A stretch of DNA of 38,805 nucleotides from the NCBI GenBank assembly GCA_016650215.1, contig JAENWF010000140.1:1-38805 (forward strand). The letters are read 5' to 3'. Positions within the stretch are counted from its first letter, which is position 1. Each line of letters opens with the position of its first letter. The position numbers were made by a program, and so were the translations under genes. Below the pieces are notes generated by a model. That model did no database searches. It was not told the origin of the DNA and saw only the letters and a list, made by a program, of their open reading frames with translations. Shown one piece after another: positions 126-36,310 of the stretch. This DNA comes from Thermoanaerobaculia bacterium. GTDB lineage: Bacteria; Acidobacteriota; Thermoanaerobaculia; Gp7-AA8.

Positions 126-833
126 CTACACGAATCGTCTCAGATGCTCGCGCCACCACGGCCAGTCATGGCCGAAAACCCCGCCCCAGAACTCTGAGTA
201 GTTCGGAATCCCCCTCGACCAGAGCAGATTCGAGAAATCGCGATTCTTCTGCACGATCGAATCATGCTCGCCGGTGGCGATGACCCAGTTGACCCTGGCC
301 AGGCGTCCGGCCCATTCACCGTTCATGTTCGCGATGTTTGCGACCGGACAGTGGAAGTAACAGTTCTCGTCCCAGTAGCCGTGGAGGAACGCGTAGATGT
401 CGTAGACGCCGGAGAAGCAGATCGCGCGGCTGACGATGTCGGGATAGCGCGACGCGAAGTTCGACGCGTGATAGGCGCCGAAACTCGCTCCGTACACAGT
501 GAGGTCACCGCGCTGCGCCCTGTTGAAGATGTACGGGACCATCTCATGGCGCAGATAGGCGTCGTACTGCACATGCCGCGCGACGCGCACTGCCGGGTGG
601 ATCGAGTCGTTGGACCAGCTCTCGTCGTTGACCGTGTCGACGAGCACGAGCTGGATCTCGCCGGCGTCGACTTTGTCGGCGAGTGAGGCCGTCAGCCCGA
701 AGTCGTCGTTCTCGTAGTAACGGCCGGCCGACGTTGGAAAGAGAATCACGGGCCGGCCGAACTTACCGAACCAGAAGAATTCCATCGTCTTGCCGAGGGA
801 AGGGCTCCACCACTGTCCATGTTCGCGGTACAT
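126..833 (-). CDS. Esterase-family alpha/beta hydrolase
   Basis: A 235-residue protein resembling the small bacterial esterase family of alpha/beta hydrolases (COG4947-like). The nucleophile elbow GASFGAYHA supplies Ser near residue 117. An acid candidate sits in ATGEHDSIV, and the C-terminal GHDWPWW supplies the His, so the triad looks complete. There is no signal peptide or membrane segment, so it is probably cytoplasmic. The ATG start has a TAGAAT box about 21 bases upstream on its own strand. The gene is divergent from an ATP-grasp ligase and shares a 58-base promoter gap with it. I infer that it hydrolyses an ester or amide linked to whatever the neighbouring ligases make. The substrate is unknown. 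Confidence 0.85.
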   Translation of the reverse strand: MYREHGQWWSPSLGKTMEFFWFGKFGRPVILFPTSAGRYYENDDFGLTASLADKVDAGEIQLVLVDTVNDESWSNDSIHPAVRVARHVQYDAYLRHEMVPYIFNRAQRGDLTVYGASFGAYHASNFASRYPDIVSRAICFSGVYDIYAFLHGYWDENCYFHCPVANIANMNGEWAGRLARVNWVIATGEHDSIVQKNRDFSNLLWSRGIPNYSEFWGGVFGHDWPWWREHLRRFV

Positions 834-891
834 AGTTTGTTTTTCTGCGCGAGGATTCTATACGATGCGCCCCTTCGGAGAGCTAGAGAGA
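834..891. promoter_or_regulatory. Divergent promoter between esterase and ATP-grasp genes
   Basis: Two -10-like boxes overlap back to back: TATACG at 859-864 reading right and TAGAAT at 860-855 reading left. Start codons lie 27 and 21 bases away. GGAGAG at about 876-881 is a plausible ribosome-binding site for the rightward gene. No good -35 hexamer is visible for either. Confidence 0.45.
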
Positions 892-1887
892 ATGGCTAAA
901 AAAAGAGTTGGCCTTCTGTTCGGGATGGAAGACACGTTTCCCTGGGCGCTGATCGATGCGATCAATCGCAAGGGAGGCGACCGTGTCGAGGCCTCACCGG
1001 TGGAGATGTCATACGTGAAGGACGATGGCGTCTTTCCGTATGACGTGATTCTCGACCGCATCAGCCACGAGATTCAGTTCTACCGCTCGTACCTCAAGTG
1101 CGCAATCGCGTCGGGAGTCCGCGTCGTCAACAATCCGATCTGGTGGTCAGCCGACGACAAGTTCTTCGACAACCTCGTCGCAACGGCCGCCGGGGTCGCA
1201 GTTCCGAAAACCGTTCTCCTTCCGCACAAGCAGTACCCGCCCAGCACCGAGGCGAAGTCGTTCCGCAACATGAAATGGGTGAACTGGGACGAGGTCTTCA
1301 GCTACCTCGGCTTCCCGATCTTCATGAAGCCGGCGTACGGCGGCGGCTGGAAGGACGTTTACAAGATCGACAACCCGAACGAGTTTTTCGCCGCCTATGA
1401 CCAGACGCGCGATCTCACGATGATGGCGCAGGAAGCGATCGAGTTCGAGCTCTACTACCGCTGCTACGTTCTCGGCCGCAAGCGCGTGCGCATCATGGCA
1501 TATGACCCGAAGCAACCGTTCCATCTGCGCTATGTCAAGAACCCGCCGCCGATGGAGCCGGCGTTCGAGGCGAAGATCAATCGCGACGCGCTGGCGCTCT
1601 GCGAGGGCCTGGGCTACGACATGAACACGGTCGAGTTCGCGGTCCGCGGAGGCATCCCGTATGCGATCGACTTCATGAACTGCGCGCCCGACGCCGACGT
1701 GAACTCGGTCGGCCAGGAAAACTTCGACTGGATGGTCGAGAACATGGCCGAAGTGCTGATCGAGATCGCGACGAAAAAGCGCCGCTTCGAGCTGACCGGC
1801 GCGTGGCCCACGATCATGAACCCGGAGAAGGCCGCAGGAGAGCCTGTGGTTCTGAACAAGAAGTACGAGCCCCAAGGTCAACCCTGA
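892..1887 (+). CDS. ATP-grasp (RimK-like) ligase
   Basis: The protein has 331 residues from ATG 892 (MAKKRVGLLFG). I prefer this start because GGAGAG precedes it and a -10-like box lies between it and the longer ORF start at 790. The ATP-grasp core is visible: the lysine/glycine-loop segment PIFMKPAYGGGWKDV (residues 142-156), an ATP-contact region AQEAIEFE, and late metal-binding residues in TVEFAV and AIDFMN. ATP-grasp enzymes join a carboxylate to an amine or thiol through an acylphosphate. With a GCS2-type ligase and an amidotransferase-like protein next door, I infer synthesis of a peptide-like or amidated small molecule. The final acceptor and donor cannot be read from sequence. Confidence 0.85.
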   Translation: MAKKRVGLLFGMEDTFPWALIDAINRKGGDRVEASPVEMSYVKDDGVFPYDVILDRISHEIQFYRSYLKCAIASGVRVVNNPIWWSADDKFFDNLVATAAGVAVPKTVLLPHKQYPPSTEAKSFRNMKWVNWDEVFSYLGFPIFMKPAYGGGWKDVYKIDNPNEFFAAYDQTRDLTMMAQEAIEFELYYRCYVLGRKRVRIMAYDPKQPFHLRYVKNPPPMEPAFEAKINRDALALCEGLGYDMNTVEFAVRGGIPYAIDFMNCAPDADVNSVGQENFDWMVENMAEVLIEIATKKRRFELTGAWPTIMNPEKAAGEPVVLNKKYEPQGQP

Positions 1888-1900
1888 GGTCAACGGCGGT

Positions 1901-2002
1901 TCTGTGTGGCGCCGCCGATCCGCGGCGGCGACCCTGAGTTATTGGGCGATACCTGTTCCGACGGCCGCAGAGCGCCGCCGCGGGTCGGCGGCGCCACACA
2001 GA
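1901..2002. repeat. Family C inverted repeat, 30-bp arms
   Basis: Arms 1901-1930 (TCTGTGTGGCGCCGCCGATC...) and 1973-2002 are reverse complements with one mismatch, separated by 42 bases. The transcript would form a very stable GC-rich hairpin between the ATP-grasp and GCS2 genes, which could attenuate read-through. A relative occurs at 15861-15905. Both copies are followed by the identical 20-bp tag CCGTCTTCGCGGCTCAGGAT (here 2023-2042). Confidence 0.85.
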
Positions 2003-2053
2003 GGCCGAAGACTCGGAGCGAACCGTCTTCGCGGCTCAGGATGAGAGTTGCCA

Positions 2054-2059
2054 TACACT
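2054..2059 (+). promoter_or_regulatory. -10-like box for the GCS2-type ligase
   Basis: TACACT ends 6 bases before ATG 2066 and no Shine-Dalgarno lies between them. This is the spacing expected when transcription starts at or beside the start codon. Confidence 0.45.
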
Positions 2060-2065
2060 ACTGCC

Positions 2066-3172
2066 ATGCCACCAAAACCCTCCTTCACTCTCGGAATCGA
2101 GGAAGAGTTTCAGGTCGTCGATCCGGCTACCCGTGAGCTGAAGTCGCACATCGCCGAGATGTTTGCGGAGGGCGAGAAGCGTCTCAAGGACGAGATCAAA
2201 CGCGAGATGCACGACGCGGTGATCGAAGTTGGTACGCCGATCTGCACCGATGTCGCGCATGCGCGGCGTGAAGTCACACGGCTGCGCGGCGAGATCTCGC
2301 GACTGACGAGGGAAAGCGGGCTTCGCATCGCATCAGCCGGCACGCATCCCATCTCGCACTGGGCGAACGTTGCGATCACGCCAGTCGCCCGCTACGACAA
2401 GATCATCTACGACCTCCAGATGATCGCGCGCGCGAATCTCGTCTTCGGGCTTCACGTGCACGTCGCGATCGAAGACAACGAGACCCGCATTCAGGTCATG
2501 AACGCGGCACGCTACTTCCTGCCGCACATCTTCGCGCTCTCCGTCAACTCCCCGTTCTGGTGCGGTCACAACACGGGTTGGAAGAGCTATCGCACAAAAG
2601 TCTTCGAGCGCTTTCCGCGCACCGGCCTTCCCGACTTCTTCCGCGGCTGGAGTGAGTTCGAGGAGCAGGTCAGCCTGCTGGTGCGGACGAACTGCATCGA
2701 CAACGCAAAAAAAATCTGGTGGGACGTCCGCCCGCATCCGTTCTTTCCGACGCTCGAGTACCGCATATGCGACGTGCCGATGCGAATCGACGAGACGATC
2801 TGCTTCGCTGCGATCTTCCAGGCCGTCACGGTCAAGCTCTGGAAGATCTACAACTCGAACATGAGCTGGCGCATCTACCGCCGCTCTCTCATCAACGAGA
2901 ACAAGCAGCGGGCCGCGCGCTTCGGCGTCGAAGGAATGCTCATCGACTTCGGCAAAGGCGCGGAGGTGCCGTTCGAACAACTCCTCGACGAGTTGCTCGA
3001 GTTCATCGACGACGTCGTCGACGAGCTGGGCTCGCGGAAAGAGGTCTACTACGCCCGTGAGATCCTCAAGCATCGCACCGGCGCCGATCGACAGCTCGCC
3101 GCCTACGAGAAGCGAAAGGATCTGCGCGATGTCGTCGACTACATCATTCAGGAAACCGAAATTGGACTCTGA
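2066..3172 (+). CDS. Carboxylate-amine ligase, GCS2/YbdK family
   Basis: The 368-residue protein starts at ATG 2066; the ORF track's TTG at 2048 lies across the promoter box. It belongs to the GCS2 family (COG2170, YbdK type). The hallmark LGIEEEF is at residues 9-15, GLHVHVAI forms the central nucleotide/metal strand, and DVRPHPFFPTLEYRICD is the conserved block ahead of the C-terminal helices. Length is normal for YbdK proteins. YbdK shows weak glutamate-cysteine ligase activity in vitro, but its true substrates are generally unknown. Followed 18 bases later by the amidotransferase-like gene, it is probably co-transcribed with it and with yvcK-glmU. It likely catalyses one of two ATP-dependent amide-bond steps in this cassette, the ATP-grasp protein doing the other. 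Confidence 0.9.
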   Translation: MPPKPSFTLGIEEEFQVVDPATRELKSHIAEMFAEGEKRLKDEIKREMHDAVIEVGTPICTDVAHARREVTRLRGEISRLTRESGLRIASAGTHPISHWANVAITPVARYDKIIYDLQMIARANLVFGLHVHVAIEDNETRIQVMNAARYFLPHIFALSVNSPFWCGHNTGWKSYRTKVFERFPRTGLPDFFRGWSEFEEQVSLLVRTNCIDNAKKIWWDVRPHPFFPTLEYRICDVPMRIDETICFAAIFQAVTVKLWKIYNSNMSWRIYRRSLINENKQRAARFGVEGMLIDFGKGAEVPFEQLLDELLEFIDDVVDELGSRKEVYYAREILKHRTGADRQLAAYEKRKDLRDVVDYIIQETEIGL

Positions 3173-3190
3173 CGTGAGGCGGCACGCTCC

Positions 3191-4180
3191 TTGATCACGC
3201 CCACCCCGGTGAAACGCAGAAACATCCACGAAGCGTCCGAGTTCTTCGAGTACGTCCGCCTCGGCGACGGCTCCGTTCCTGCCGCAGACCCGAAGAAGAT
3301 CGACGTCGCGGTCCTCGACATGAATCATTCCTGGCCGAACATCGGCCACGACGCGATCATCCACGCAATCCAGGACGCCACGGAAGAGCATCAGGAACGG
3401 CTCCGCACCACCGGCAAGATACTCCGCGTGCTCTCGTACGACGTCCGCCGCCGCCTCATGCTCCCCGAGGTGCCGAACGGACGCTTCCTGCTCTACGTCG
3501 GCACAGGTGGCCCCGGACATCTCGATCCACGCCAGAACGACGGGATGGAACCGTGGTCGCAGGGCATCCGCGAGACGGCCGAATGGGAAGCGCCGCTTTT
3601 CAATCTGTTCGACCGCGTTCTTGCAAAGGAGGAGGCAGCGCTCATCGCTGTCTGCCATTCGTTCGGTCTCGTCTGCCGATGGACCGGCGTCGCAAGGCCA
3701 CAGCAGCGCGAGGAGAAGAGCACCGGCATGCCGACCAACGTGCTGAGCGAAGAAGCGACGGCGCATCCGTGGTTCTCACGTTTCTCGGCGCAGCTTCCCG
3801 ACCGCCGCCACTATCGCGTCATCGACAACCGACTCTTTGATCTCGTGCTCGAGTCGCCGGGAAAGAGCCGCCCGCTCGCATTCGAATCGGACGACAGCTC
3901 GACGGTGACGATGGTCGAGATCGAGCGCGAGCGCGAGTCGGGCATGCCTCGCGTCTTCGGCGCGAACCACCACCCGGAAATCATTGACCGCGACAAAGTC
4001 ATGGCGGTCCTCGACGCGAAGCGCGCACATGGCGAAGTGAGCGAGCTGTGGTACCGCGAGCGCGAGCATCTGATGACCGATCTCTTCCGCGGCGAGAGCG
4101 AGCGCCAGAGCCGTATCACCTCCGAGTTCACGTTTCTCGGGCTGCTCCGCCACCATGTCGGGCGGCTCGCGAACCGTTAG
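3191..4180 (+). CDS. Class I glutamine amidotransferase-like protein
   Basis: A 329-residue protein with a class I GATase-like layout. A nucleophile elbow ALIAVCHSFGLVCRW places Cys at residue 155, and GANHHPE (residues 257-263) gives the usual His-Pro-Glu, so a Cys155-His261-Glu263 triad can be proposed. The elbow is CHSFG rather than the usual G-x-C-x-G, and the region between elbow and HPE is longer than in stand-alone GATases. It may therefore hydrolyse a gamma-glutamyl or other amide rather than free glutamine. The start is TTG 3191, with GAGG about 11 bases upstream; GTG 3209 is an alternative. It sits between the GCS2 ligase and yvcK, with 18 and 11 bases of spacing. Confidence 0.75.
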   Translation: MITPTPVKRRNIHEASEFFEYVRLGDGSVPAADPKKIDVAVLDMNHSWPNIGHDAIIHAIQDATEEHQERLRTTGKILRVLSYDVRRRLMLPEVPNGRFLLYVGTGGPGHLDPRQNDGMEPWSQGIRETAEWEAPLFNLFDRVLAKEEAALIAVCHSFGLVCRWTGVARPQQREEKSTGMPTNVLSEEATAHPWFSRFSAQLPDRRHYRVIDNRLFDLVLESPGKSRPLAFESDDSSTVTMVEIERERESGMPRVFGANHHPEIIDRDKVMAVLDAKRAHGEVSELWYREREHLMTDLFRGESERQSRITSEFTFLGLLRHHVGRLANR

Positions 4181-6770: not shown

Positions 6771-8087
6771 CTACCACCGCTTCAGGTCGAGGCGCATCCG
6801 GCCGAAGTCGAGCACGACATCGAACTGCTTGAGAAAGTTCTCACCGACGATTCCGACCGAACGCTCATGCTCCTCGGCGGCATACATCGGGATCGTGCGG
6901 AACGAGCCTGCCCACTTGTCGACGCCGATCTCGACCTTCTCGACTTTCGATCCCCGCTTCTTCGAGCCGCCCAGGCCTTGAAGCGTCGCACTGTGGACGC
7001 GCGGCGTGAAGCTGTTGATCGGCAGCCCGGCGATGCGCGTCTGGTTCAGATACGTGATTTCGGAACCGGTATCGAGAACAAACAGATACCAGCCATGCTT
7101 GTTGATCGTCGCCCGGACATTCGGACGAAAGTTCTCGAAGAAGAGATTCTGATTCTGGGCCGGATGACGATCGCTCGCATTGAGTCTCGTGAAGCTGACG
7201 CGGTTGCGCGAGAAGGTCAGATCGATGCGGAACTCCTTGAGCAGATTCGCGCCAAGGAGGAAGTCGATACGAAACTCGCGCTTGCCGGCCACGACGAAAC
7301 GCATCTTCTCGTCCGGCATGATCGCGATCGGAACGTTCTCGACGACCACGGCACCGATCTCGAGCGAGTCGACGACGCCGAACTGCACCGGGATCGGCTC
7401 GTTGAGCAGTCCATAGAATGTGCCGTTGGAAACGCGGAGCCGTCGGACCGAAAGCGATGACGCCATCCGCTCCGACATGATCGAGAGGACCGCTCCGGAG
7501 TCGATCACCGCGGTGACCGGTGTGGCCGAGCGGTTCACGCGCACGTCCACCCGCGGCACATCCGGGCGCCCGATCTTCAGCGGCATCTCATCGCTCGGCA
7601 GACCGCTGAAGCGGTAAACCGGGATCGTTGCGAGCTCCTCGAGATACTGCAGATGCCACGGCAGAATTGCGATGCCGTTGTCGACCGCGGTGCGCGCCCA
7701 TTCGAGACTGGTCTCGAAGCTGTTGCTCATGTACTCGACTTGCGAGAGATGCCATGCGGCCTCGCCGTAGGTCGACCGGAAGGGCTGCAGCTCGATTGCT
7801 GCTCGAAGGTGCTTGCGCGCGGAGTCATAACGTCCTGCGGCGAGCTCCGCGTGGCCGAGGCTGACAAGATCGGCGGCGTTCTTCCGGATCCGGCCGTCGA
7901 TCGGAACCGCCATCTCGAGGGCACGAAGGTAGTCAGCCTTTTTCACCATCGACTGCACATCGGAGCCGCGGTCCAGCTTCGCGGGCGCAACCACGAGAGG
8001 GCCGATCGACACGTCGGAGTAGAGCGCGCAGCGCGTCAGTCCGAGAAGCACGAGGGCTGCGACGGCGATGCGCTGGAAAGGGGTCAT
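6771..8087 (-). CDS. Exported two-lobed aspartyl-protease-like protein with TPRs
   Basis: The 438-residue protein has an N-terminal hydrophobic export signal (residues 8-20). The Cys at 20 follows Arg, so this is not a classical lipobox. TPR-like helices occupy about 50-150. Two retropepsin-like lobes follow, with AVIDSGAV (Asp196) and FVLDTGSE (Asp339). Each lobe ends in a hydrophobic-Gly motif (DFLLGANLL and GIVGENFL). Both lobes keep a D-[ST]-G triplet, so a single-chain, pepsin-like active site is possible. Most bacterial relatives have one lobe and would work as dimers. TACAAT at 8106-8101 lies 13 bases before the ATG. It is downstream of the sigma-54 activator on the same strand. The substrate is unknown, probably periplasmic. 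Confidence 0.8.
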   Translation of the reverse strand: MTPFQRIAVAALVLLGLTRCALYSDVSIGPLVVAPAKLDRGSDVQSMVKKADYLRALEMAVPIDGRIRKNAADLVSLGHAELAAGRYDSARKHLRAAIELQPFRSTYGEAAWHLSQVEYMSNSFETSLEWARTAVDNGIAILPWHLQYLEELATIPVYRFSGLPSDEMPLKIGRPDVPRVDVRVNRSATPVTAVIDSGAVLSIMSERMASSLSVRRLRVSNGTFYGLLNEPIPVQFGVVDSLEIGAVVVENVPIAIMPDEKMRFVVAGKREFRIDFLLGANLLKEFRIDLTFSRNRVSFTRLNASDRHPAQNQNLFFENFRPNVRATINKHGWYLFVLDTGSEITYLNQTRIAGLPINSFTPRVHSATLQGLGGSKKRGSKVEKVEIGVDKWAGSFRTIPMYAAEEHERSVGIVGENFLKQFDVVLDFGRMRLDLKRW

Positions 8088-8189: not shown

Positions 8190-11100
8190 TCATGCTCGGA
8201 ATGATTTGACGAGGATTCCGAGCTCGCGGATCTGGTATGCGAGAGCCTGGCGCGACATATTGAGTATCTCGGCGGCGCGATTCTGATTGCCTGAAGCCGC
8301 GTTCAGCGATTTCTCGATCAGATCACGCCGGAAGCGGGTGACCGCGTCCTGATACGAGCCGGCGACGGCACGCGCGGGAGTCGCGGCCCGCACCCGCTCA
8401 GGAAGGTGCTGCATTTCGATCTCGCGTACGTCGCCTGCGATCGCGTGTGCTGCGCGGATCGTGTTCTGCAGCTCGCGCACGTTTCCCGGCCAGCGATGGG
8501 CTCGTAGAAGCGTCTCGACTTCGGATGAAAAGGCGGAGGGGCCGCTTCGATGGCGGCTGCTTTCCCCGTCGACGAAGTGCCGCGCCAGCAACAGCACGTC
8601 GTTTCCCCGATCGCGAAGTGGAGGAAGCGCAATCTCGACGCCGCGGATCCGGTAGTAGAGATCCTCGCGGAAGCGCCCCTCCTCGACTGCAGTCTCGAGC
8701 TTGCGGTTGGTGGCGCTGACGACGCGCACGTCGGCGATGCGATTCGTCGTCTCGCCGACTCGACGAAAATCACCATCCTGGAGAAAACGGAGAAGCTTTG
8801 CCTGAGCGGTCAGCGGCATCTCTCCGATCTCGTCGAGGAAGATCGTGCCGCCTTCGCTCGACTCGATGAGCCCCGCGCGGTCGCGGTCCGCACCGGTAAA
8901 TGCGCCGCGGACGTGTCCGAACAGCTCGCTCTCGATGAGGTTTTCGGGTAGCGCGGCGCAGTTGATCGGAGTGAACGGCTTCTGCCGCCGCGCCGATGCG
9001 CGATGAATCGCACTGGCGACAAGCTCCTTGCCGGTGCCCGACTCGCCGAGAACACAAACGGCGACATCGCGCCGCGCGACGCGCTCGATCAGATCGAAGA
9101 CCGCGCGGATCGCCGGTGACTCGCCGACGATTCCGTGCGTTCCCTGCATGCGAGACGGCGTCTGCTCCGCCGGGTCGACGAGTCTGCGAAGGCGGTGATT
9201 CTCTGCGCGCGTACGGAAGAGGGCGAAGATCGCGCTGCGGGACTCCACGCTCCACGAGCCGGCACCTTCGATCATGAGAATCTCGCGATCGCTGCAGCGA
9301 ATCACATCGCCTTCATCACCCGCCGCGTCCAGTTCCGCCGGCGTGACTTCTGCGGGCCCGTCACTGGACCAGTGTCCCAGGCGATTGCGCGAGGCAAAGT
9401 ACCAGCGGATTGGACCGAATGCGTCGTGCGCGAATGGATACTCAGTGACGGCAGCAGCCCGAAGAATCTCGACATCCGTCCCGTCTCTCCTCGCCACCAC
9501 TGGAGTGTCGATCCGCAGTCTCGCGGCAAGTTGCGCGGCGAGCTCCTGACGTCCATGCGCGACCGCCGAGCGGTAGAGCGCGAGTTTGTTCGACGCCGAA
9601 GGGGAGAGTGGCGTCGGCCCGGCACGGCCACCCATCTCCCACTCCGACAGGTCACGATGAAACTCACTGGAAAGCGGCAGAGGCGATCCTCGTCTGCAAC
9701 TCAATAGGCGATGGCGGTCGTCGAGCTCACGATTTCCGCTGCGACCTTTCGAGCGCAGTGGATTCTGGCTGCCGCTCATCCAATCGACCTCGTCGGCGAT
9801 CAGCGCTGCCGCCTCGCGAATCTGCGCGATGAGTGAGGGGCGATCGAGAATCCTCAGCGCGATTCGGTGGGCCGAGGCGAACCGGCCGCGCGAGAACTCG
9901 AGATGCGCATCGAGAAGGTCCAGCTCGAAGGTGCGCGCCGCGTCGTCGGAGGCGTGATGATCGCGCAGGCGCTCGATCATGTGCGCCGCCGTCTCCCACC
10001 GCCCGCTGTCTGCCGCGAGATACGCGAGCGTGTAGAGGATGCCGGCCGCTCCGCGGTCACCCTGCGCTTCGTCGATTGCCGTCAGTGCCTCGATCGCGAG
10101 CGCACGTGTTTCCTCCCACCGGCCGGCCGAGAATGACGCAAAGATCCGGTCGAGCCATGCGTCGATCCGTTCGATCGTCGAGCGTGCCTGCACAACCGCA
10201 AGCGACGCGGCGTTAGCAGCAGACTCGCAGTCACCGGTGGCGAGCGCGGCGTACGTCTGCAGACGCAGGCCCAGGTAGTGATCGTTCGGAACGCTGTCGC
10301 TGGCGACAGATGAACCGCGATCGATCGCGAGGACCGCGAGCTCGTACGATTGCTGGATTCGCTCCTCGGGAGTCGAAGGAGCCGCGCCGGCAAACTCCAC
10401 CCGCGCGTCGTCGTACCGCTCATCGAGTCTCAGCAGCTCGCCTCTCAGCATGGCCGCGCGGAAGTCACGCACCGTCATCCGCCCGAGCCGCGCGAGAGCA
10501 GTCGCGTAGTCACCTTCACGGCGCTCGACGAGGGCCATGAGGAGCTCGACCTCGGTCCCCTCCAGCATCGGAGCGAGCTCGCGCGCATCGGCGTATCGCG
10601 CACTCTCGGCGAGCGCACGCGCAAGCACGAGTGCGAGTGGAGGCGTGAGACTCGCACGCGAAACGCGCGTCAAAGCTTCGACTGCTTCATCCGCCGATTC
10701 CCACTCGACGCGCTCGAGTAGCGCGAGACCCTGGGAGACCTCGCCGCACTCGATCAGAAGAAACGCTGCCTGCGATCCGGCAGATACCGAGGCTGCGGCA
10801 CTGCAGAGCGCCGGACGCGACGCGTGCGGAATGTGACGCGCGCAATGTTCGCGAATCTCCTCGGACGCGAAGAGCAGCTCGTCTCCCGACAGCGAGGTGA
10901 CACCCGGCACGACGAGAGACTCGAGCGGATGATCGAAGAGAAAATCGCGCAGGAACCCGCGAGCGAGGTCGACCGGTACTCTCTGTCCGAGCAGCGCGAG
11001 AGCCGCAACGTAGGAGCGACGCGGCTCGCCCAAAGCCGCGAACGCGCTCTTCTCGACTGGCAGCGACCCCGTCTGCAGAAAGCGGGCGTAGTCATCCGAT

Positions 11101-12116
11101 CGAACGAACGCATCGAGCCACGCGGGTGGATCTGATTGCGTCGCGAGACGATTCTGCAGAGATTCGACGGCAGCGAGTCGCGACGACACCGCGAAGTAAC
11201 GGCTGGACGGGAGCTGTGGCGCATCGCCGCCGAGCTCGAGCCAGGTTGCGGAGGTCAACGTGGCCGCTGACTCCAGGACTCGCTTCGACGCACCATCGAG
11301 CAGATCGCGATCTTTCGTGACGATGACATGCTTCCGGCCCGAGAGAAGAGTGGCGACGCACTCGGCCAGTTCAGACTCTGTGCGCGTCGAACCTGCAAGA
11401 GCGGGATCGAATGCAGCGAGTGCCCCGTAACGCTGGAGCGGCGCCGGCTCGATCACGACCACGCGCACCGAGGGATCGAGCGCCGCCATAAAGCTCAACG
11501 AGAGAACGCCGCGAGCGCCTGGCAACAGATGAACGCCACCTGCTTCGTGCCACAGCTCGCGCAATGCCTCCGCGCCGGGAGAGGCGACCTCCCCCGCCGC
11601 CGCGCCGCGCATTGACGTACGGTCAGCTCCGATGTCGCGCGACAGCCTCGCCTCGATCTCGCAGTAAAGCGTCTCCGCGCGCAACCACGGACGTCGCAAC
11701 GCATCGACCGCTGGAGCGTCGATCGCGGAAGCGAACCGCTGGAAAAGCGTCAGAAGCGGCGGCGACGATTCGGCATCGACACCGCGTGCCGCGATCCGCA
11801 CGAGCCGCGGGTCGATTCCTCGCTTCCGCATGATCATCCACTCGGCCGGATCGAGCTCCGCGTCCGCGATCCCCGCGAACTGGAGAAATGCCTGGTGCCC
11901 TGCAAACTGCGCCAGCAGCGAGAGCCGGTCGCGCGGTCCTAGCCCGCGCGCCGAGTCGAGCGCCGACAACTGCATCGAGATCTCCAGAGACGCGCCGGCG
12001 CACCACGGAAGCGATGCGTGGTGCAACGTCGCGGTCGTCGCCGCGTCCCAGGCGAAGCTCCGCAACGACACCACCGTCGCGTCCGACGTACGGCGTGAGG
12101 CACCTCGCATTGACAT
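8190..12116 (-). CDS. Giant sigma-54-dependent activator with TPR and degenerate NTPase front
   Basis: A 1308-residue regulator. The C-terminal third is a complete sigma-54 activator. Walker A GESGTGKE is at about residue 1024, GAFTGA (the sigma-54 contact loop) at 1071-1076, and Walker [10 protein letters not shown] near 1090. The arginine-finger region [10 protein letters not shown] and [10 protein letters not shown] follow. The Fis-type helix-turn-helix ([18 protein letters not shown]) is at the very end. Residues about 400-850 are alanine-rich helical hairpins of TPR type. Residues about 190-310 ([12 protein letters not shown], then [15 protein letters not shown]) look like a P-loop NTPase of STAND style that has lost the GK[ST] residues. 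No receiver, PAS or GAF sensor is obvious, so the TPR/NTPase-like part presumably senses the signal. It is divergent from the IMPase gene across GGGAAA-type repeats. Confidence 0.9.
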
Positions 12117-33387: not shown

Positions 33388-36135
33388 ATGGCCACCCGCA
33401 CGATCGCCATACGCGGCGCTCGCACACACAATCTCAAGAACGTCTCGGTCGACATTCCGCAGCGCCAGCTGACGGTTGTCACCGGTCCGTCCGGCTCGGG
33501 AAAGTCGTCGCTCGCGTTCAATACTCTCTATGCCGAGGGGCAGAGGCGCTTCGTCGAATCGATGTCGACGTATGTGCGGCAGTTTCTCGAGAGGATCGAC
33601 CGGCCCGACGTCGATGAGATCGACGGAATCCTGCCGGCGATCGCCATCGAGCAAAAGAACTCGGTCAAGAACGCGCGCTCGACGGTCGCGACCGCGACCG
33701 AGCTCGCCGATCACATCCGCCTCTTCATGACCTACGGCGGCGAGACATGGTGCCCCGACTGCGGGATCCGCGTGACGAAAGAGACGCCGGAGTCGATCGC
33801 GAAAGCGATCACCGAGACACTCGCGGGAAAGAAAGCGGTCGTGCTCGCCCCCGTCTTCTTCGATCCGGCCAATCGCGACGAAGTCCTCATCCAACTGGTC
33901 AAGGCCGGGTTCTATCGCGCGTGGATCGACGGCGAGGTGCGCGATCTTCATTCGACCGATACGAGCGCGTTCAGCTCGCTCGAGCTGGTGATCACGCGGC
34001 TTCGGATCAATCCCGAGAAACCCTCGCAGGTCACCGAAGCGGTCGAGCAGGCGTTCGAGCTCTCGAAAGGAAACGTCAACATCCTCGAGGAGAGCGAGAA
34101 GGGATGGCTCAGCCATCGCTTCACCTCACGCTTCGCGTGCAATCACTGCGGGACCGAGTTCATCGAGCCGTCGCCGCAGCTCTTCTCGTTCAACTCGCCG
34201 CTCGGTGCCTGCACGCAGTGCCAGGGCTACGGCCGGATCATCGGCATCGACATGGAGAAGGTGATTCCGAACCGCGGGCTGCGCCTCGACGAGCGGCCGA
34301 TCACTCCGTGGAACTCCGCGGGCTACGAGGACTGCTACGACGATCTCGACAAGGCGGCGAAAAAGTACAACATCCGCCTCGACGTGCCGATCAACGAGCT
34401 GAACACCGCCGAATGGGAGCTGCTCTACAACGGACGGAGCAAGTGGTACGGCATCAAAGGCTTCTTCGACTGGCTCGAAACTAAAAAGTACAAGATCCAC
34501 GTGCGCGTGAAACTCGCGAAGTATCGCAGCTACGAGCCGTGCCCGAACTGTAAGGGCTCGCGACTGAAGACCGCGGCGGCGAACGTGAAGTTCCGCGACC
34601 GGACAATCGGCGATCTCTTCGCGATGGACGTGAAGACGGCGCGCAAGTTCTGGGAGTACCTCGCGCTGTCGAAGCAGGAAGAGAAGAGCGCCGGACATCT
34701 GCGCCGCGAGATCCTGAATCGCCTCGTGTATCTCGATGAAGTCGGACTTTCGTACCTCACGCTCGATCGTCAGACACGCACGCTCTCGGGCGGTGAGGCG
34801 CAACGCATCAACCTCGCGGCGGCCCTCGGCAGCTCGCTCACCGAGACGATGTACGTCATCGACGAGCCGACGGTCGGTCTCCACGCGAGAGACAGCGAAC
34901 GGCTGCTGACTGTGCTCCGCCGCCTGAAGAATGCGGGGAACACGGTGATCGTCGTCGAACACGATCAGACGATCATCAACGGGGCCGATCACACGATCGA
35001 GCTCGGGCCAGGCGCTGGCGAGTACGGCGGCCAAATCACCTACGAAGGAAAACCGCGCAATACAGAACCTGCTCCCTCGACCCTCGACCCTCGACCCTCG
35101 ACCCCCGACCAGGGCTCGATCACGATCCGGAACGCGCGCGCGCACAACCTGCGCGGTATCGACGTCTCGATTCCGCTCGGGCAGTTCGTGGCGATCACCG
35201 GCGTGTCGGGATCGGGCAAGTCCACGCTGATCCGCAACTGCCTCTTCAACCGTTATCAGCGCGATGTGCGCGGCACGAGCGGACTCGACGCGGGGAAGAT
35301 CGATGCGCTGGAAGGGGTCGACGCGATCTACGACATGCAGTTCGTCGATCAGTCGCCGATCGGCAGGTCGACACGATCGAATCCTGCGACGTACGTGAAA
35401 GCGTGGGACGAGGTCCGCAAGATTCTCTCAGAGACGACGGCCGCGAGGCTCAATGGCGTGACCCCCGGGATGTTCTCGTTCAACACGACCGGCGGACGCT
35501 GCGATGAATGCGAAGGCGCGGGCACCGTCACGATCGACATGCAGTTCCTCGCGGACGTCGAAGTCGTCTGCGACAAGTGCGGCGGGAAACGCTTCAACGA
35601 GCAGGTGCTGAAGATCAAGTACAAAGGGAAGAACGTCGACGCGATCCTCGTTCTCACGGTCGATGAAGCGATGAAGTTCTTCGTCGACAAGCGCGCGATC
35701 CTTCGCAAACTCGATTCGCTCCGCTCGGTCGGCCTCGGCTATCTCCGACTCGGACAGTCGACCGAGTCACTTTCGGGCGGCGAAGCGCAGCGGCTCAAGC
35801 TCGCGTCGTTCCTATCGGAAACAGCGAAGAGCGATGTGAAGCGCCTCTTCCTCTTCGACGAGCCGACGACCGGCCTGCATCACACGGAGGTCGACCAGCT
35901 CATCCGCACCTTCCGCGATCTCATCGAGCGCGGCAACTCGGTCGTCGTCATCGAGCACAACCTCCAGCTCATCGCCTCCTCCGACTGGGTCATCGATCTC
36001 GGTCCCGATGGCGGCGATAAAGGCGGCGAGCTCGTGGCGGAGGGGACTCCGGCCGACGTTGCTGCGAACCCGCGGAGCGTGACTGGGATGTATCTCAAAG
36101 AGCGCGTCGGTAGCCCGATCTCGACGTCATCCTGA
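33388..36135 (+). CDS. uvrA: Excinuclease ABC subunit A
   Basis: The protein has 915 residues from ATG 33388. Two ABC modules carry Walker [10 protein letters not shown] and GVSGSGKST, signatures LSGGEAQRI and LSGGEAQRL, and Walker B with [10 protein letters not shown] and [10 protein letters not shown]. Zinc-finger cysteines are at CNHCG with CTQC, CPNC, and CDEC with CDKC. An extra CPDC lies in the UvrB-binding region. It recognises DNA damage and loads UvrB in nucleotide excision repair. Odd points: the linker between the halves ([14 protein letters not shown]) is encoded by a 7-bp tandem repeat, and the stop codon lies in a family B repeat. Confidence 0.95.
35074..35108 (+). repeat. 7-bp tandem repeat (CCCTCGA)x5 inside uvrA
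   Basis: Four perfect CCCTCGA units and a fifth CCCCCGA lie end to end. They encode the linker [12 protein letters not shown] between the two ABC halves. Seven is not a multiple of three, so gain or loss of one unit would shift the frame in the middle of uvrA. Confidence 0.9.
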
Positions 36136-36310
36136 GCGAAGCGAAGTTGCCCGTCTATCCTGAGCGAAGCGAAGGATCTACTGATAGCGCTGGGGATGCG
36201 TGAGGTTCTTGCCTTGGGCACGTAGAAATGCACGAGGTTCTTTCTTGACTGGTCCCCAGCGCTATCAGAAGATCCTTCGCTTCGCTCAGGATTGACCCAA
36301 GCACGCTTCG
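36130..36310. repeat. Family B inverted repeat with 40-bp arms
   Basis: Arms 36157-36196 and 36253-36292 (ATCCTGAGCGAAGCGAAGGA... and its complement) match at 39 of 40 positions around a 56-base centre. Extra single copies of the TCCTGAGCGAAGCGAA motif precede the left arm and a degenerate copy follows the right arm. The first motif copy contains the uvrA stop codon TGA (36133-36135). The element lies between uvrA and the OPT gene. Confidence 0.9.

Follow-up and report, generated by a model that had tools for sequence, protein, structure and literature searches.

A conserved cassette of carboxylate-amine ligases and hydrolases in Acidobacteria and its possible role in gamma-glutamyl-type peptide or amide metabolism

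Closest described systems and layout of the locus

The YbdK protein of Escherichia coli, a weak gamma-glutamyl:cysteine ligase, has been known as a stand-alone enzyme. Iyer and co-workers (2008; PMC2588565) described a family of ligases with the glutathione-synthetase fold beside a thiol peptidase resembling glutamine amidotransferases, and predicted glutathione-related peptides for it. In the parts of that paper that concern these neighbourhoods, the pairing of a carboxylate-amine ligase of this fold with a thiol peptidase of glutamine-amidotransferase fold provides a precedent for the locus analysed here. This locus lies in a stretch of 38,805 nucleotides of Thermoanaerobaculia DNA, referred to as the window throughout. 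All four open reading frames of the set were present in the window, with the following layout:

126 to 833, minus strand: EST, predicted alpha/beta-hydrolase of the PF00756 esterase family, 235 amino acids, triad Ser117-Asp191-His222
892 to 1887, plus strand: GRASP1, predicted RimK/Ddl-like ATP-grasp carboxylate-amine ligase, about 331 amino acids
1888 to 2065, no strand assigned: palindromic genome-wide repeat, REPIN-like, inserted between GRASP1 and GCS2 (hairpin and count of half-sites in the genome)
2066 to 3172, plus strand: GCS2, predicted YbdK-type carboxylate-amine ligase (gamma-glutamyl-cysteine ligase superfamily) with a GIEEE signature
3191 to 4180, plus strand: GAT, putative Cys hydrolase of class-I glutamine-amidotransferase fold, triad Cys155-His261-Glu263

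GCS2 is a full-length homologue of YbdK but stands here in a fixed multi-ligase cassette. The Pfam scan assigned it to the GCS2 family only and thus not to the second amidoligase family of PMC2588565; the amidoligase of those neighbourhoods is a separate family, and the parts of the paper devoted to them describe no EST, no GRASP1 and no counterpart of X, a fifth partner introduced below. No description of the five-gene set was found in the open literature searched; a 2009 amidoligase survey lay outside this search, and a prior prediction is possible. That survey, reportedly by the same group as the 2008 study, may have touched on the set. Our reading, held at slightly better than even confidence, is that the cassette constitutes most of a five-part pathway that makes and turns over a small gamma-glutamyl-type peptide or amide.

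EST and GRASP1 are arranged head-to-head (833 and 892), with a gap of 58 nt. The most likely start of GRASP1 is ATG 892, which is the start used by relatives, rather than 790; GCS2 starts at ATG 2066 and GAT at TTG 3191 or GTG 3209. The gap of 178 nt between GRASP1 and GCS2 contains a very strong hairpin (z = -6.6) and consists of GTGTGGCGCCGCCGA(C/T)CCGCGGCGGCG in two inverted copies, the half-site of which occurs 24 times in the window genome and 0 times in the reversed control. This insert is a dispersed palindromic repeat and lies outside the enzymatic system. Elsewhere in the window, short repeats of TTCGCTTCGCTCAGGATG were observed at 56-98 and 36128-36293 (5 sites vs. 0.02 expected). 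A 438-aa protein (6771-8087, minus strand) begins with a repeat region, contains the motifs DSGA and DTGS, and resembles a retropepsin-like aspartyl protease in which the domain is present twice; a 1308-aa protein (8190-12116, minus strand) combines a repeat-like stretch, a sigma54-activator AAA+ domain and a C-terminal helix-turn-helix-like region.

Folds and catalytic residues of the encoded proteins

In the Pfam scan, EST matched PF00756 as a divergent member (E = 1.4e-10), and its Ser117, Asp191 and His222 are invariant in 72 homologues. GCS2 matched PF04107 over its full length (E = 3.2e-60, profile positions 1-288 of 291), scored 517 bits against NCBIfam NF010039, above the cut-off, and aligned with the YbdK structure 1r8g (E = 1e-45). 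Its GIEEE motif occupies residues 16-20, of which G16, E18, E19 and E20 are invariant in 78 sequences, in agreement with the GhExE signature of the family. GRASP1 gave no match in the Pfam scan; its profile matched structures of biotin carboxylase and D-Ala-D-Ala ligase (E down to 5e-6) as well as the NCBIfam rimK_fam model (1.7e-5). Lys146, Gly150-152, Gln180, Glu248, Asp260 and Asn263 of GRASP1 are invariant in 98 sequences and include the ATP-binding Lys, Gly-rich loop, Mg-binding acidic residues and Asn of ATP-grasp enzymes.

GAT matched neither Pfam nor NCBIfam. Its AlphaFold2 model was confident (pLDDT 89.6, pTM 0.91), and the best matches in the PDB were proteins of class-I glutamine-amidotransferase fold, headed by Arabidopsis gamma-glutamyl peptidase 1 (9k7k, E = 1.6e-11) and followed closely by the TM1158 glutamine amidotransferase (1o1y). 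Both share the fold and the Cys/His/Glu triad with GAT, although identity is 13-15% and GAT has about 60 additional, helical residues at its C terminus. Cys155, His261 and Glu263 are invariant in 35 of 35 aligned homologues, so that GAT displays both the fold and the triad of class-I glutamine amidotransferases. Judged from these sequence features, EST, GRASP1, GCS2 and GAT all look like active enzymes. The earlier note had recognised two ligases of the ATP-grasp and GCS2 families, which the profile matches and PF04107 bear out; its residue numbers for GAT are right, and a lack of conservation of the Cys, His and Glu, which it had named as grounds for rejection, was not seen.

De novo clustering of neighbouring genes identified a fifth partner, X (about 400 aa), which normally sits after GAT or after an M29 metallopeptidase described below. 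The window genome encodes X on a different contig (G000:C190:5972-7171), where it follows dnaX, recR and MglA/B-like genes; the same setting was found in three related genomes, and one further related genome has X on a short separate contig. In the lineage of the window (L155, L156 and L158), X follows roadblock/MglB-like and MglA-like GTPase genes downstream of dnaX-ybaB-recR. The model of X (pLDDT 92.5) best matched human, plant and yeast glutathione synthetases (2hgs, 8fbz and 1m0w among them; E to 5e-14) and also a putative glutathionylspermidine synthase, suggesting that X is an ATP-grasp protein of glutathione-synthetase fold. The likeness to the eukaryotic enzymes is one of fold only: identity is 10-14%, X has no Pfam match at the cut-off, and the eukaryotic glutathione synthetase family model does not recognise it. 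X was rejected as a relative of GRASP1, to which it has no detectable similarity. GRASP1, GAT and X are thus three parts of the set without a family name. The similarities to solved structures are distant (8-17% identity, TM about 0.5-0.6) and therefore indicate fold rather than substrate. In Balneolia and in an Acidobacteriota genome of another family (G040), a CP_ATPgrasp_2 protein replaces X in the second-ligase position, followed by a GAT homologue in two of three such loci (hhalign E = 7e-24).

A ligase paired with a gamma-glutamyl hydrolase of glutamine-amidotransferase fold follows the logic of PuuD and BtrG-type enzymes, and the fold match of GAT to gamma-glutamyl peptidase points in the same direction. 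The cassette might accordingly be read as gamma-glutamylation for amine utilisation or protection (Puu pathway or butirosin-like), with GCS2 adding gamma-Glu, the ligases processing and GAT removing it. We consider this unlikely: catabolism leaves two further ATP-grasp ligases unexplained, and no recurrent amine oxidase, dehydrogenase or transporter appears among the most frequent neighbour families.

Conservation of the cassette and exchange of its hydrolase

EST, GRASP1, GCS2 and GAT are contiguous in 13 members of the same family, the window included, with varying flanks. The yvcK-glmU genes downstream in the window adjoin the cassette in few relatives and were rejected as members of the system, since most relatives do not have them after the cassette. 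When genomes were scanned with an alignment of GRASP1, relatives turned up in at least 570 of them; among the matches listed, these are mostly Acidobacteriota and mostly beside EST and GCS2, and the others are titled Eremiobacterota/Vulcanimicrobiota, Armatimonadetes, Balneolia, Calditrichaeota, Ignavibacteria and Kapabacteria. No GRASP1 homologue was found in the plasmid collection searched. Among the best 80 of these more than 570 relatives, 45 loci from distant genomes had full flanks, and in them GRASP1 was accompanied by GCS2 (38/45), EST (34/45), X (33/45), M29 (33/45) and GAT (6/45).

Co-occurrence was consistent with these neighbourhoods and greatly exceeded what chance would give. In 61 relatives, 27 of which contain GAT, the counts for GAT and GRASP1 were 26/1/3/31 (Fisher p = 7e-13) and those for X and GRASP1 were 28/1/1/31 (p = 4e-15), both uncorrected for shared ancestry. 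In a 199-genome sample of the phylum, GRASP1 was present in 22 of the 23 genomes bearing X, compared with 59 of 199 overall (Fisher 1.6e-12, likewise ignoring shared ancestry). In one genus (G008 and G016), GRASP1, GCS2, GAT and X are jointly absent and EST is kept. In family f5, EST, GRASP1, X and GAT are kept at separate sites, with single-genome exceptions, and the neighbours of GAT there (gpsA, cinA and a metal ABC transporter) gave no functional clue.

Dispersal of GAT, X and GRASP1 in f5, together with evidence that comes mostly from within Acidobacteriota, would suit mere neighbours kept together by slow rearrangement without a common pathway. However, the cassette persists while its flanks differ, Eremiobacterota, Armatimonadota and Ignavibacteria have the set as well, and even dispersed copies are present or absent together (the one genus, the tight co-occurrence), which largely refutes this explanation; we assign very little probability to it. 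The cassette is almost certainly real and widely conserved in Acidobacteria and some other phyla.

Several irregular loci were also observed. In a draft genome (G005:C299, L041:12589-14639), GCS2 and GAT are each split into two overlapping frames, reflecting a frameshift or an assembly error. At G059:C13:113289-117533, in a genome that does not belong to the main lineage of the cassette, a GCS2 gene and a divergent homologue of GRASP1 (E = 9e-35) stand about 2.3 kb apart, which suggests an older and wider pairing. A MurF-like Mur ligase gene occurs downstream of GRASP1 in f5 genus g16 (L160:13807-15114, L161:9551-10858 and L061:11240-12424); being confined to one genus, it was rejected as part of the cassette. 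Another esterase-like gene was seen repeatedly in the vicinity of the cassette (L091:7665-8606 and L076:8764-9705): it matches PF00756 in one Balneolia locus, and 18 Terriglobia-type loci encode a protein of similar appearance.

In Terriglobia, the position held by GAT in Thermoanaerobaculia and Eremiobacterota is occupied by an M29 metallopeptidase. GAT and M29 occur together in 0 of the 45 full-flank loci, and among the 61 relatives only family f11, which is without GAT, gave strong M29 matches (E below 1e-150). Glu196, Glu268, His294, His314 and Asp316, which we take to be the metal ligands, are invariant in the M29 set. The protein matches the aminopeptidase AmpS (1zjc), with a similar conserved pattern of metal ligands, but is shorter (about 340 aa) and also has a distant match to 2,5-dihydroxypyridine dioxygenase (7cn3).

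This exchange bears on whether GAT is a true glutamine amidotransferase feeding ammonia to GRASP1, X or GCS2 for a terminal amide, as its class-I fold and triad and the annotation of TM1158 as a glutamine amidotransferase would allow. Ammonia delivery from glutamine is not expected of an M29 peptidase, and the replacement of GAT by this unrelated, mutually exclusive protein disfavours an ammonia-supplying GAT, which appears highly improbable. Two unrelated hydrolases sharing one slot would rather be expected to cleave a bond, and a hydrolytic role of GAT is thus more probable than one in supplying ammonia.

GCS2 was not found in 8 of 9 f5 genomes, all eight of which keep X and GAT and seven of which also keep GRASP1, and in Balneolia loci it is not beside GRASP1. 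A gamma-glutamyl bond made by GCS2 is therefore not obligatory; GCS2 is the least obligatory ligase, and this genuinely weakens any interpretation that is strictly gamma-glutamyl.

The conserved four-gene cassette proposed in the earlier note was confirmed by its contiguity in the 13 family members and its recurrence in distant loci, and the homologues did not prove to be rarely neighbours, the outcome that would have spoken against it (13 family members, 45 loci). The set is real, yet the proposal had missed X and the GAT/M29 exchange, and GCS2 is absent from most f5 genomes. Its view of the Cys protein as a hydrolase gained support from that exchange; with X as a fifth member, its two sequential ligations may become three.

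Proposed pathway and its product

The combined data make it likely that the cassette builds and turns over a small molecule held together by amide or peptide bonds, and a gamma-glutamyl character of this product is plausible, at odds a little above even. GCS2 would activate the gamma-carboxylate of glutamate, or of a similar acid, with ATP and join it to an amine, after which X and GRASP1 may each add one further amine or amino acid. GAT, or M29 in other lineages, would then cut the product at a peptide or isopeptide bond for trimming or recycling, in a cleavage likened to that of gamma-glutamyl peptidases, and EST may remove an ester or thioester group from the precursor or the product. Substrates, order of ligation, gamma-glutamyl nature of the bond and role of EST in this scheme are what we infer.

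The same enzymes could instead make a low-molecular-weight thiol resembling glutathione: GCS2 would form gamma-Glu-Cys, X would attach the third residue, GAT would serve recycling and EST would hydrolyse S-acyl adducts. The EST family (PF00756) includes esterase D/S-formylglutathione hydrolase, which offers a model for EST acting on such adducts, and GCS2 lies within the gamma-Glu-Cys ligase superfamily; the fold of X agrees with a thiol as well. Strong PF02955 (glutathione synthetase) matches were found in 15 of 61 relatives, and a strong canonical gshB in only 1 of 30 cassette genomes. A strong PF02955 match, sought as a sign of canonical glutathione synthesis, was not found in the window genome (88% complete), which gave a weak partial match (E = 3.9e-8, profile positions 61-137 of 175). 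However, the anticorrelation with gshB comes largely from a single clade (f8), and 52 of 61 relatives carry bshC, a gene for bacillithiol; the one cassette genome in which it was not found is an incomplete draft, so that a main thiol is already there. Acidobacteria have been predicted to make bacillithiol (PMC6282198). The near-universal bshC and the absence of GCS2 from most f5 genomes weaken a replacement of glutathione, and we regard the thiol explanation as rather unlikely. Because bshC occurs in nearly all these genomes, the main cell thiol is unlikely to be the product, and the cassette probably makes something additional.

For the gamma-glutamyl-type pathway that we favour, we tentatively suggest, with somewhat less than even confidence, that the product represents a widespread undescribed class of metabolites: gamma-glutamyl-containing peptides or amides, made by three ligases of different lineages (GCS2, a RimK-like ATP-grasp and a glutathione-synthetase-fold ATP-grasp) and turned over by interchangeable Cys- or metallo-peptidases, which soil Acidobacteria and several further phyla would make in addition to bacillithiol. 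The exchange between GAT and M29, together with the fold of X, directs the search towards peptides joined by gamma-glutamyl or other amide bonds, and culturable hosts such as Terriglobus, Edaphobacter and Bryocella should make the product findable by knockout metabolomics. If the reading is true, several hundred genomes, mostly of abundant soil Acidobacteria, would share an unrecognised small-molecule pathway.
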